A stretch of DNA of 59,749 bases from contig NZ_JACJRC010000032.1 in assembly GCF_014697025.1 (NCBI RefSeq), forward strand, positions 1 to 59,749. The letters are read 5' to 3'. The translations under genes were made by a program, and so were the position numbers. Source of the stretch: Alkalinema sp. FACHB-956 (GTDB lineage Bacteria; Cyanobacteriota; Cyanobacteriia; Leptolyngbyales; Leptolyngbyaceae). This document shows positions 2,660 to 53,607 of this stretch, in pieces. The notes beneath the pieces are model-generated. The model was given only the letters and a program-made list of their open reading frames with translations, was not told the origin of the DNA and ran no database searches. The number at the start of each line of letters is the position of its first letter. Within the stretch, counting starts at the first letter, position 1.

Positions 2660-2898
2660 AGCCCAAAAATTTAGAGCCACCCCGTTTGACATCACAAACA
2701 AGAGTGGCTCGATCGAATGTTAAAATTCTCAACAAGCCTCCTTGCTGGCGCTACAGCGAGGGGGAATAGCTACCCGGAGTTGCTCCAACAACAAAGGGTA
2801 GTGCCCTAAATTTTCAGGATCCCAGCGGCCCCGCGCTTCATACCGTACCGTCAATCGTAAGCCCAACTGAAAGAAGGATGTCCACGGAACCGCTATGA
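2660..2898 (-). ncRNA. structured 5' leader RNA, copy 1 (candidate cis-regulatory RNA)
   Basis: Leader between the promoter at 2905-2933 and small-protein copy C1. A closing helix pairs 2806-2818 with 2662-2674 (13 bp including two G-U). Inside it are a hairpin 2796-2802/2769-2775 (CUACCC/GGGUAG core, with an inner GUUG/CAAC stem) and a hairpin 2702-2710/2674-2682 (GAGCCACUC with GGGGUGGCUC). The segment 2710-2726 (ATTTTAACATTCGATCG on the minus strand) is identical in copy 2. The same helices occur at 51576-51827 with compensatory changes, which is the main evidence that the RNA structure is selected. It matches no riboswitch class I know. Ligand or role unknown. Confidence 0.6.
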
Positions 2899-2904
2899 AA
2901 AGCT

Positions 2905-2933
2905 AGATTACGAATAAAGCAAGCCCCTGTCAA
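2905..2933 (-). promoter_or_regulatory. sigma-70-type promoter of leader copy 1
   Basis: On the minus strand TTGACA (2928-2933), a 17-base spacer and TAATCT (2905-2910). The predicted transcript starts near 2898, about 340 bases before the C1 start codon. The same -35 hexamer, the same 17-base spacing and a TTTCATAGC block just downstream recur at leader copy 2. Confidence 0.6.
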
Positions 2934-2984: not shown

Positions 2985-4184
2985 CTAGCGCCCCAGCCGA
3001 TTCGGAATCCCCTCACAGCCCCCCGGCACCGTCGCCCGCGTCTTCGAGCCGCCCCAAGAACACACATAAATCCGCTGATCCTCCGACATATCCTCCACAT
3101 TCGTAAAATCAGCATTCTCCACCACAGCCCCCGTTTGCGCCCCCGTCTTATAATCCGGCGGTTCCGTACGGCTGCGCGGCGTCGCCGTTTCCAGCTTGCC
3201 GTAGAACAACCGCGCGCTATTAATATCCGCCGCTTCCAAATTCGCACCCACCAAAATCGTCCGCGCCAAATTCGCCTTCACCAACTCACAATTGCGCAAA
3301 TCCGCCCGAATCAAATTGGCATCACTCAAATCCACCCAGCGCAAATCCGTATTCTTCAAATCCGCCCCCGCCAACATCACCCCCAAATCAATCACCCGCA
3401 CCCCATGCAGCCGATCCTCCGCATAGCCGCCCTGCCCATCCAAAATCGGACGCCCCAACCGCTGATCTCGCTTCAACGGCGACAGCAACCGCGCCCGTGA
3501 CAAAAACCGCAAAATCTTCGCCTTCCCCAACGCATCCACACTGCTGAAGATCGACGCCGTACGCCCCTCCGCGATCGCCCGTTCCTGGGGCCAATCCTCC
3601 AGCAACCCCTCTTCATCCAACACCAAATCCGAAATCCCTTGGAAATAGGTATCGATCGTTTGTTGCTGCGTAATGTTATTTTGCTGAATCGTCAGATCCT
3701 TCGAAATCACATACTGCCGCCAAGCGATATACACCGCCAACACCGCAATCAAAATCTGACCCAACGCCCCAAACACTTCTCCCAACGCCCCGATCGCATC
3801 CCAGTTCGCATCCGCCAACTGCTCCGACAACCACCGACTCGCCCCAATCACACTCAACAAACCCAACAATCCCAAACCCAGCCCAAAGGATGCTAAAAGA
3901 ATCGCACCATCCTTCGTCGTAAACAGATCCTCCACCGCTGGCTGAATCGTTGGATAAAAAACTTGTAACGATAACCCCAACGCTACCAATGATCCAATCA
4001 GAAGTAGCCAAGTATTGCCTAGAAAAAATCCAATTAAAATAATCGCGATCGCAATGAGCGTTAGCGCCGCAGCGGCATTCACCTTAGGCCCAGAGTCCAC
4101 CGATCGCGAGACAGGAACGATCGACTGAGATGCCGTGGACGTTTCCAAATTCGGCTTAGCGGGAGGTTTAGGATCAACAGTCAT
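2985..4184 (-). CDS. membrane-anchored pentapeptide-repeat protein
   Basis: 399-residue protein. A polar N terminus is followed by about four hydrophobic segments (residues roughly 38-80, 92-115 and 130-155), then a linker rich in Gln and acidic residues. Residues about 265-320 carry pentapeptide repeats of A(D/N)LxX type (GADLKNTDLRWVDLSDANL, then more), which fold as a right-handed quadrilateral helix. The C terminus, with two Cys (YVCSW, GGCEG), has no clear assignment. Such proteins sit in the plasma or thylakoid membrane in cyanobacteria, mostly with unknown roles. The gene is upstream of, but separated by a promoter from, the C1 small-protein leader. Confidence 0.75.
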   Translation of the reverse strand: MTVDPKPPAKPNLETSTASQSIVPVSRSVDSGPKVNAAAALTLIAIAIILIGFFLGNTWLLLIGSLVALGLSLQVFYPTIQPAVEDLFTTKDGAILLASFGLGLGLLGLLSVIGASRWLSEQLADANWDAIGALGEVFGALGQILIAVLAVYIAWRQYVISKDLTIQQNNITQQQTIDTYFQGISDLVLDEEGLLEDWPQERAIAEGRTASIFSSVDALGKAKILRFLSRARLLSPLKRDQRLGRPILDGQGGYAEDRLHGVRVIDLGVMLAGADLKNTDLRWVDLSDANLIRADLRNCELVKANLARTILVGANLEAADINSARLFYGKLETATPRSRTEPPDYKTGAQTGAVVENADFTNVEDMSEDQRIYVCSWGGSKTRATVPGGCEGIPNRLGR

Positions 4185-51543: not shown

Positions 51544-51575
51544 GGGATTTCTCCTAAACGTTGTAGCGGGAAGAA

Positions 51576-51827
51576 ATCCCAAAAATTAAAGCCACCCTTT
51601 TGCGCAGGACAAGTAGGGTGGCCCGATCGAATGTTAAAATCCGTGTCAGACCGCCTAGCTGCCTAGACCAGCTTCGGGGTTTAGCTGCCTTACGTTGTTG
51701 ACGCAACTGGGGCAGCGCTTTAATTTTTGGGGTCTAGCTGATTGATTGACCGACGGGCGGTCTGTGCCCTACGAGCCGTTTTCCACGGCTGTAGTCAGCT
51801 ATAAAAAACAGCTGTAGTCAGCTATGA
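51576..51827 (-). ncRNA. structured 5' leader RNA, copy 2 (candidate cis-regulatory RNA)
   Basis: Homologous to the leader at 2660-2898. The closing helix pairs 51717-51731 with 51578-51592 as a perfect 15-bp match (CCCAAAAATTAAAGC with its complement). Hairpin A, 51711-51716/51684-51689, has CUGCC/GGCAG where copy 1 has CUACC/GGUAG, a compensatory change. Hairpin C, 51615-51622/51591-51598, pairs GCCACCCU with AGGGUGGC. Segment 51624-51640 is identical in both copies. The structure is followed by a ribosome binding site and the C2 start codon, so it could gate translation or transcription. Confidence 0.6.
51803..51825 (-). terminator. terminator-like hairpin at the start of leader copy 2
   Basis: On the minus strand ATAGCTG-ACTA-CAGCTGT forms a 7-bp stem (one G-U) followed by six T. 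It lies within the first 25 bases of the predicted transcript and is part of a duplicated 23-base unit (51788-51830). Leader copy 1 lacks it. Confidence 0.35.
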
Positions 51828-51833
51828 AAAATA

Positions 51834-51862
51834 ACAGTACGAAGAAAGTCCCACCCTGTCAA
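51834..51862 (-). promoter_or_regulatory. sigma-70-type promoter of leader copy 2
   Basis: On the minus strand TTGACA (51857-51862), 17 bases, TACTGT (51834-51839), then TATTTTTCATAGC. Hexamers, spacing and downstream TTTCATAGC match copy 1. Transcription would start near 51827. The divergent TIR-AAA gene begins at 52006. Confidence 0.55.
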
Positions 51863-52005
51863 CCGTATTACGAAAGTTTATGCTCTGTGATATTTGGCAA
51901 CAGGGAAGGGCGTCTCCGGCAGGCGCGATCGCGGGTGCAGATCCCCTTCTGGGAAAGTGCAGTAAATTGATAGACGAAGGCATTGCAGGAAGTCAATCGA
52001 TCGCC

Positions 52006-53607
52006 ATGGCACGGATCTTTATCAGTTATCGCAGTCGCAATCCCGATATGAGTTTGGCGCAGACGTTCCATGATGCGTTCCAGGCGGCAGGCCATGGGGC
52101 ATTTATGGCGGGGGAAAGTATCCGACTGGGGGAAGATTGGGCCAAGCGAATTGATTTGGAATTGGAACGCTGTGATTATTTTCTATTGCTGCTGTCGGAA
52201 CAGTCCGCTGTGAGTGAAATGGTAACGGAGGAAGTCCGGCGGGCGAAACAATTGCGGGATCAAACGGGAAAGCCAATGCTATTTCCGATTCGGGTCAATT
52301 TCCCGATCGATTCGCCCCTCAATTATGATCTACGGGGTTATTTGCAACGTATTCAACAACGGGAATGGCACCGTGAGACGGATACCGATAGTATTTTTCA
52401 AGAAATTCTGGCGTTAATTGCCGATCGCACTCCAGTTACGCCAAAGACAACAGCTATAGCAGCACCTACTGAGAACCCCGAAGCCACGCAGCCCGAAGAA
52501 GCCCACCCCGAAGCCTTAGATCCGCCCGCGATCGAAACCCGGTTTGCCCAGCGGGAGTCGGTGCAGATGCCGCCGCTCCCTGTGGCCGAGCCGGAACTGC
52601 CGGGGGGACAGGTGGATTTGGCGTCACAGTTTTATGTGGAGCGTCCTCCGATCGAAGCGCGCTGTTATGAAGCGATTTCCCAACCCGGTGCCCTGATCCG
52701 CATTAAAGCGCCTCGGCAGATGGGGAAAACGTCGCTGATGTCGCGGATTTTGCGCTATGGCGAACAGCAGGGGTGCTTGGGGGTGCCTTTGAGTTTTCAG
52801 ATTGCGGATTCTGTGGTGTTTGGGGATTTGGATCGCTTTCTGAAATGGTTTGCGGCTAGTGTGGGGCGGCGCTTGCAATTGCCGAATAAGCTGAAGGATT
52901 ATTGGGATGATATCTTTGGCAGCAAGGATAATTGCACGGCTTATTTTGAAGAATATTTATTGCAGGAGTTAACGCAACCGTTAACGCTCTGTTTAGACGA
53001 AGTGGATATGGTGTTTCAACATCTCAGTATTGCCAATGATTTCTTTGGATTATTGCGCAATTGGCATGAGATGGGTAAGACGAGCGAATTGTGGAAACGC
53101 TTTCGCTTAGTCGTGGTGCATTCCACGGAGGTTTACATCCCAATGAATATCAATCAATCGCCGTTTAATGTGGGACTCCCGATCGAATTGCCGGAGTTTA
53201 CCGCTGAGCAGGTGCAGGATTTGGCCGATCGCCATGGCTTGAAGTGGAATACGTCGCAGATTGGGCGGCTGATGGGTATGGTGGGGGGGCATCCCTATCT
53301 GGTGCGGTTGGCGCTGTACCACATTGCGCGGGGCGATACGACGCTGGAAGGGTTGCTGCGGGAGGCTCCGACGGAGGCGGGGTTGTATGGCGATCATCTG
53401 CGGCGGCATTTGTGGAATTTGGAGCAGCATCCGGAGTTGGCGGCGGCGGTGCGGCAGTTGGTCGCGACGGAGCAGGCGGTGCGGTTGCCCTCGGTGCAGG
53501 CGTTTCAACTACACAGTATGGGGTTGGTGGATCTGTTGGGCAATGATGTGGGCTTTCGGAGTGAACTGTATCGCAGCTATTTTGCCGATCGCTTACGATC
53601 GGAGTAG
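52006..53607 (+). CDS. TIR-domain protein with AAA-like ATPase domain
   Basis: 533-residue protein. Residues 1-100 form a TIR domain: ARIFISYRSRNPD, a FMAGESIRLGEDW loop, FLLLLSEQSAVSEMVTEEVR, in which E75/E76 lies where the catalytic Glu of NAD-cleaving TIR domains is found. After a Pro/Glu-rich linker comes the cyanobacterial AAA-like domain (PF14516 type) with Walker A RQMGKTSLMSR (about 236) and Walker B LCLDEVDMVF (about 327). A helical C terminus follows. I chose ATG 52006 since the TIR fold starts there; a longer frame runs from 51880. TIR-STAND-like proteins act in antiphage defence, so defence is an inference. Confidence 0.85.
   Translation: MARIFISYRSRNPDMSLAQTFHDAFQAAGHGAFMAGESIRLGEDWAKRIDLELERCDYFLLLLSEQSAVSEMVTEEVRRAKQLRDQTGKPMLFPIRVNFPIDSPLNYDLRGYLQRIQQREWHRETDTDSIFQEILALIADRTPVTPKTTAIAAPTENPEATQPEEAHPEALDPPAIETRFAQRESVQMPPLPVAEPELPGGQVDLASQFYVERPPIEARCYEAISQPGALIRIKAPRQMGKTSLMSRILRYGEQQGCLGVPLSFQIADSVVFGDLDRFLKWFAASVGRRLQLPNKLKDYWDDIFGSKDNCTAYFEEYLLQELTQPLTLCLDEVDMVFQHLSIANDFFGLLRNWHEMGKTSELWKRFRLVVVHSTEVYIPMNINQSPFNVGLPIELPEFTAEQVQDLADRHGLKWNTSQIGRLMGMVGGHPYLVRLALYHIARGDTTLEGLLREAPTEAGLYGDHLRRHLWNLEQHPELAAAVRQLVATEQAVRLPSVQAFQLHSMGLVDLLGNDVGFRSELYRSYFADRLRSE

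Follow-up and report, generated by a model that had tools for sequence, protein, structure and literature searches.

A widespread structured leader RNA with hypervariable hairpin loops precedes a small-protein gene family in Alkalinema sp. FACHB-956 and may be under cis-antisense control

Leaders, small-protein genes and their distribution

The window analysed in this work is a stretch of 59,749 nucleotides (nt) from the cyanobacterium Alkalinema sp. FACHB-956 (contig NZ_JACJRC010000032.1, positions 1 to 59,749). It contains two copies of a long leader RNA, each in front of a gene for a small protein, and a third related small-protein gene close to the contig end (Table 1). The leaders represent one conserved, covarying RNA in which a long-range helix, P1, encloses hairpins A, B and T, followed by an open reading frame (ORF) for a protein of about 70 amino acids (aa). 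An earlier note on this DNA had described a two-copy structured leader, and several of its elements were found again in both copies: the promoter hexamers with 17-base spacing, the change of hairpin A from CTACC/GGTAG to CTGCC/GGCAG, and the further hairpins. The closing helix is likewise present in both, with 14 pairs in copy 1 and 13 (two of them G-U) in copy 2 instead of 15 and 13.

Table 1. Features of the leaders and related genes in the window. Leader lengths are counted from an assumed transcript start 7 bases past the -10 element; R1 is the covariance model of the RNA core described in the text.
Feature	Position	Strand	Remarks
Leader, copy 1	about 51826 to 51544	(-)	~283 bases to small ORF
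Leader, copy 2	about 2897 to 2562	(-)	~336 bases to small ORF
Sense promoter, copy 1, TTGACA-17-TACTGT	51834..51862	(-)	read from sequence
Sense promoter, copy 2, TTGACA-17-TAATCT	2905..2933	(-)	read from sequence
RNA core, copy 1, helix P1 around hairpins A, B, T	51578..51732	(-)	R1 134.9 bits (in training set); covariation
Hairpin A, copy 1	51684..51716	(-)	hypervariable loop 51698-51703, CGTCAA
Hairpin B, copy 1	51657..51673	(-)	hypervariable loop 51662-51668, GTCTAGG
Hairpin T, copy 1, terminator-like, then TTTAATTTTTGGG	51590..51623	(-)	loop nearly invariant in group A
Hairpin pairing ribosome-binding site, copy 1	51544..51580	(-)	fold
RNA core, copy 2	2663..2818	(-)	R1 138.8 bits (in training set); loop A 2783-2788 TTGGAG, loop B 2748-2753 TAGCGC
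Predicted extended -10 (TGTTAAAAT), antisense promoter, copy 1	51632..51640	(+)	motif shared in 59/64 aligned rows
Predicted extended -10 (TGTTAAAAT), antisense promoter, copy 2	2718..2726	(+)	sequence motif
Predicted antisense RNA, copy 1, ~82 nt, complement of hairpins B and A	51647..51728	(+)	extent inferred; folds into two hairpins
Predicted antisense RNA, copy 2, ~83 nt	2733..2815	(+)	extent inferred; fold
Small-protein gene, copy 1, 71 aa	51328..51543	(-)	ORF and homology
Small-protein gene, copy 2, 72 aa	2343..2561	(-)	ORF and homology
Third related small-protein gene, 70 aa	59309..59521	(-)	228 bases upstream remain before contig end; no R1 match in them

The number of copies in the genome was determined with R1, a covariance model of the RNA core comprising 45 pairs and built from 12 training sequences, among them both window leaders. 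With 150 of 2152 candidates scored, the search returned 80 rows, which correspond to 77 sense places and three reverse-strand shadows of sense matches; 'two-copy' was thus far too low a figure. Of the sense places, 67 scored at least 127 bits; the other 10 scored from 37 to 82 bits. Among these lower-scoring places is group D (L179-L185), which encodes a more distantly related protein. When the small protein was searched in its own genome, 76 rows were obtained at E ≤ 10. The 70 copies with E ≤ 6e-8 were sorted into groups A (L001-L032), B (L033-L057) and C (L058-L070). A TTGACA-type box is located upstream of most of the 70 copies listed. Copies are generally homologous from a little before the -35 box to the vicinity of the stop codon, and they are dispersed among genes that look unrelated by eye, for which reason deduction of a function from neighbouring genes was abandoned. 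Some copies lie at contig ends (59309-59749 in the window, L183, L188-L190), as expected if a repeat breaks the assembly. Therefore, the true copy number may exceed 77.

The family is not confined to this strain. Matches to a protein profile were present in 31 of 58 genomes (own genome included), mostly with one to five copies per genome; 12 were found in G031 and 16 in G057. In a survey of 386 genomes of the phylum, again including this one, the protein was detected in at least 34 and the RNA in at least 12 (G051 weakly), these being lower bounds given that 14 (protein) or 7 (RNA) candidates were scored per genome. RNA homologues are present in other cyanobacterial families. Twenty-four RNA loci were read (23 from other genomes and L186 from this one); in 22 of them an ORF of 50-110 aa follows that looks family-like by eye, and in two no such ORF was found within the stretch read. 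Among plasmid records, family member L210 matches 13, of which 12 are annotated 'hypothetical protein' and one carries no annotation. In six further genomes, the leader of many copies is of another kind and looks by eye like a single hairpin whose loop is variable. In L191-L197, L200 and L208-L210 the stem of this hairpin appears to be HIP1-like or to read GGTGATC/GATCACC, and its variable loop measures ~20 nt; two such hairpins seem to stand in tandem in L208 and L210. A phage origin was also considered and dropped, as none of 16 pattern matches in viral contigs was confirmed. The assertion that the RNA belongs to no known class was borne out by Rfam 15, which gave no match at gathering score in the window and in 18 loci, and no description of this RNA and small-protein family appeared among the papers listed by the literature searches. 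Whatever the mechanism, this is a widespread structured RNA with a small-protein family, neither of which was found in Rfam, Pfam and NCBIfam to the extent searched.

Of the 70 copies fetched from this genome, 69 keep an ORF of 60-85 aa. Two other loci, L141 (stop) and L148 (frameshift), were excluded from alignment A8. The small protein showed no match with a low E-value in Pfam, NCBIfam, PADLOC or PHROG (best 0.095-0.25), and a sequence search of the PDB gave a best E of 0.94. The three window proteins are not hydrophobic (highest 19-residue Kyte-Doolittle means of 0.37, -0.08 and 0.32), and none of them has the character of a hydrophobic membrane peptide that is usual for type I toxins. A beta-alpha-beta-beta fold was predicted with a mean pLDDT (predicted local distance difference test) of 75.8. 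Foldseek found no PDB match to this model at E ≤ 0.001, and the best structural match in a second look, the DNA-binding domain of E2 from human papillomavirus 18 (Z 5.2, root-mean-square deviation 4.2, 56 aligned residues), lies in a range rated as common by the tool and is not informative. A toxin-like or a regulatory role is conceivable for this small soluble protein.

Covariation of the leader and hypervariability of two apical loops

In alignment A7 (67 rows, 65 distinct), 38 of the 45 pairs change on both sides, and 89.4% of cells are paired (P1, 95%; hairpin A, 79%; hairpin B, 84-100%; hairpin T, 94.5%). Changes on both sides were seen in 471 cells. None of 500 column shuffles reached this number (149 ± 10), and sliding of the partners gave no more than 96. 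This outcome is favoured by the fitting of A7 to the structure and by the presence of both window copies among the training rows. The model search and the pair counts uphold the view of a conserved structured leader with compensatory changes in front of a small-protein gene. Hairpin T was not called by a consensus scan. Between T and the start codon, many copies carry an extra hairpin that pairs the ribosome-binding site. Its stems differ in sequence between group A (GGGAUUUCU/AGGAGAAAUCCC), group D (GGUUUUCCUC/GAGGAAAACC) and G057 (GGGGUUUCC/GGAAACCCC), yet they still pair. In this region, many copies of group B have a long spacer.

Hairpins A and B have hypervariable apical loops, which change in place at orthologous loci, while most other parts of the leader are conserved within a group. 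In group A the mean pairwise difference amounts to 0.414 in loop A and 0.624 in loop B, but only to 0.028 in the T loop and 0.006 in a 12-nt joiner (0.077 in group B and 0.15 in group C). T loops could be read in all 30 copies of group A, none of 24 of group B, 3 of 9 of group C, 13 of 14 of G057, where their difference is 0.116, and 4 of 6 of G031. Group B shows differences of 0.58 (loop A) and 0.64 (loop B) versus 0.32 at four-fold sites. In group D, with loops chosen after the alignment had been seen, all 10 loop columns are variable versus 7 of 148 elsewhere in the leader (Fisher p 1e-11). The differences there are 0.656 for loop B and 0.60 for loop A, compared with 0.193 at third codon positions and 0.010 at first and second positions. 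Judged from these codon positions, the small ORF of group D is under purifying selection. Gene conversion of the ORFs could make the loops seem faster than they really are.

Changes in place were followed in genus g49. According to their upstream flanks, L153 and L156 are one locus in two species. Their cores without loops are identical at 138 of 144 positions and loop A is shared; loop B reads GAATCAG in one and ATCACAG in the other. L151 and L152 probably belong to the same locus, to judge by a shared flank farther away; L151 is identical to L153 at 140 of 144 positions, with TTGCGAG versus CTGGTAA as loop A. Further orthologous loci are L164/L174, matched by both flanks (125 of 137 identical, both loops different), and L169/L170, matched by the upstream flank (135 of 144 identical, loop A shared, loop B different).

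Several possible partners of the loops within this genome were examined and rejected. Loop A does not pair with loop B of its own copy beyond expectation (mean longest run 2.79, both observed and permuted). Words of 5 and 6 letters from the loops were not consistently enriched in the flanks or the unit of their own copy relative to loops of other copies; single enriched bins were seen for loop A (same strand, 6-mers, 330-250 bases upstream, 10 versus 3.0) and for the complement of loop B in the ORF (8 versus 3.3). Complementarity between loops of different copies was found in 23 pairs, none of them between two B loops, versus 8.3 after shuffling of letters, but versus 16.4 ± 4.5 when column composition was kept; as 21 of 200 such shuffles were as high, the excess is not significant. 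Loop A of one copy is the exact reverse complement of loop A of another in L001/L063, L014/L022 and L162/L164, as if hairpin loops inverted.

A conserved opposite-strand motif and candidate antisense control

The 17-base block CGATCGAATGTTAAAAT, noted before as identical in the two leaders, is indeed present in both. The -10 region of a promoter on the opposite strand accounts for this block better than RNA structure does. On the opposite strand, 59 of 64 aligned rows contain the motif TGnTAnnnT, against 1.4 expected after dinucleotide shuffling, and five contain it on the leader's own strand; the shorter TAnnnT occurs on the opposite strand in all 64 (20.3 expected). Three of the 67 rows of A7 were excluded from this count, namely the reverse-strand matches from L059 and L025 and the poor match L187. 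The motif resides between hairpins B and T, in unpaired, conserved sequence that takes in part of the identical block; its variable positions are those tolerated in -10 elements. As a raw count, TGNTANAAT was found somewhere in the reverse of the 330 bases upstream in 64 of 70 own copies.

From this motif we infer a promoter that would make an antisense RNA of ~80 nt that is exactly complementary to hairpins B and A. The transcript would start just before hairpin B, pass B and A, and reach the T-rich complement of P1. The predicted antisense RNAs of both window copies (~82-83 nt) fold into two hairpins. The main argument for antisense control is that the predicted transcript covers both hypervariable loops and spares the T loop.

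The interpretation which we favour, and to which we give about an even chance, is that of a small-protein gene family in which each gene is repressed by its own cis-antisense RNA via copy-specific kissing loops. The antisense RNA would recognise its own leader by loop-loop kissing and then extend into a duplex, and the gene would be held off by favouring of the terminator-like hairpin T, by a paired ribosome-binding site or by cleavage of the duplex. With sense and antisense RNA read from the same DNA, changes in a loop would remain complementary. Because each copy has its own loops, pairing would be private to it and copies would not repress each other, much as in plasmid incompatibility groups. 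Less probable, though not remote, is the extended proposal that the genome holds about 75 mutually private RNA switches, each with an antisense lock keyed by two kissing loops, and that these loops diversify faster than synonymous sites, either through selection against cross-talk or through a dedicated diversifying process. If true, one cell would harbour tens of orthogonal antisense switches as a natural library, from which one could learn the number of loop sequences sufficient for specificity and their rate of turnover, and cyanobacteria would have a further, unrelated kind of antisense-controlled small-protein locus.

A number of observations weigh against cis-antisense control. No conserved -35 element accompanies the candidate antisense promoter, the 64 rows that carry the motif are related and hence not independent, and a sigma-70 consensus scan called no promoter on either strand of both copies, the sense promoter included. 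An antisense terminator is not clear by eye in G057 and some others. The 12-nt joiner hardly varies in group A, but its difference reaches 0.55 in G031 and 0.20 in G057. Minimum-energy folds of the single, full window leaders lack P1, whose support is comparative. Sequestration of the ribosome-binding site is not universal either; in g49 copies the site is free and follows the hairpin. The small protein has no toxin similarity in family and sequence searches. Finally, loop pairs are distinct in all 71 own copies read, with 14 copy pairs sharing loop A, 10 sharing loop B and none sharing both, but copies sharing both loops are also expected at only 0.056 by chance; therefore, this distinctness alone proves nothing, and avoidance of cross-talk is not proven.

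The earlier note had likened the leaders to a riboswitch. In a riboswitch or a protein-sensing leader, P1-A-B-T would serve as the sensor through which termination or the ribosome-binding site is controlled; the loops would merely be unconstrained. The compact P1-closed junction with its conserved core, the terminator-like hairpin and the hairpin over the ribosome-binding site would suit such a device. The likeness is not supported by the present data, and we consider it improbable: 77 copies lie in unrelated places of one genome, the best conserved unpaired stretch is promoter-like on the other strand, and relaxed constraint is insufficient to account for the excess of loop B over third codon positions in group D unless the ORFs were homogenised. 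Control by antisense RNA fits better than ligand sensing because the paralogues are so many, the two loops are the most variable parts and a conserved opposite-strand extended -10 adjoins them. An RNA that acts in trans, with loops as seeds for other cellular or phage RNAs and a target set per copy, would agree with loops that diversify in place and show no complementarity to their own flanks. However, the small ORF stays attached and, in group D, appears to be under purifying selection, whereas a pure guide RNA would not need it, which makes this reading quite improbable.

Hypervariability might also be purely mutational, with loops between inverted repeats flipping or mutating by template switching and having no role in specificity. 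The classes of loop A (C..A 14, T..G 5, G..A 4 and T..C 3 of 26 six-base loops) and the loops that are exact reverse complements of others speak for such a process. Yet hairpin T has a comparable stem and a loop that is nearly invariant in group A, and the inversion signal mentioned above is not significant, so that we hold this explanation to be improbable as well. Lastly, the copies may constitute a mobile, selfish element of ~600 bases, with an RNA and a protein that chiefly promote its own propagation. Although dispersal among seemingly unrelated neighbours and the common ends of homology are in line with mobility, there is no transposase, terminal repeats and target duplications are not established, the closest own copies in the listed alignments are 93.9% identical with no very recent copies seen, and the ORFs are almost all intact; this origin is unlikely.

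Comparison with known systems and neighbouring genes

Cis-antisense RNAs control plasmid copy number in ColE1 (RNAI/RNAII), pT181 and pIP501, and loops set their specificity. Unlike in plasmid copy control, the leader family is chromosomal, is found in ~77 places and has no replication protein. A cyanobacterial plasmid antisense RNA, asRNA1/ssr7036 of pSYSA, is described in a report in which kissing is proposed (PMC9978351). The leaders resemble it and plasmid copy control in having a predicted opposite-strand RNA with a few hairpins and proposed kissing loops. As in plasmid-type antisense-controlled leaders, hypervariable recognition loops lie inside the overlap; with regard to an opposite-strand promoter inside the leader, an extended -10 but no -35 element was found. 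Small protein P0002 gave no tblastn match on a Synechocystis plasmid.

A study on Microcystis describes msoT1/msoA1 as the first cyanobacterial type I toxin-antitoxin candidate, in which MsoT1 is a predicted membrane protein and the antisense RNA MsoA1 pairs at the 3' end, and gives SymE and RalR as exceptions to hydrophobic membrane type I toxins (PMC12390103). In comparison, a small ORF with a cis-antisense RNA of two hairpins (predicted here) is a common trait, whereas the protein studied here is not hydrophobic and the predicted antisense RNA covers the 5' leader. With respect to type I toxin-antitoxin systems in general, a small ORF is present and the antisense RNA is predicted from the conserved -10. 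In Helicobacter, AapA/IsoA comprise several paralogous type I loci with cognate antisense RNAs; the present family differs by its tens of copies and the targeted hypervariability of its loops. The proposed mechanism would operate like plasmid copy control and type I toxin-antitoxin systems, but membership in either is not established. In loop-guided mobile RNAs such as the IS110 bridge RNA and the exon-binding sequences (EBS) of group II introns, loops are complementary or identical to insertion flanks, unlike the loop words here with their lack of consistent enrichment in own flanks.

Both window copies have a neighbour with a tentatively recognisable product. By appearance, the gene at 51880-53607 (+), divergent from the 51-kb copy, encodes a putative TIR-domain protein, and a putative pentapeptide-repeat gene at 2985-4184 (-) immediately precedes the 2.6-kb copy in the same orientation.
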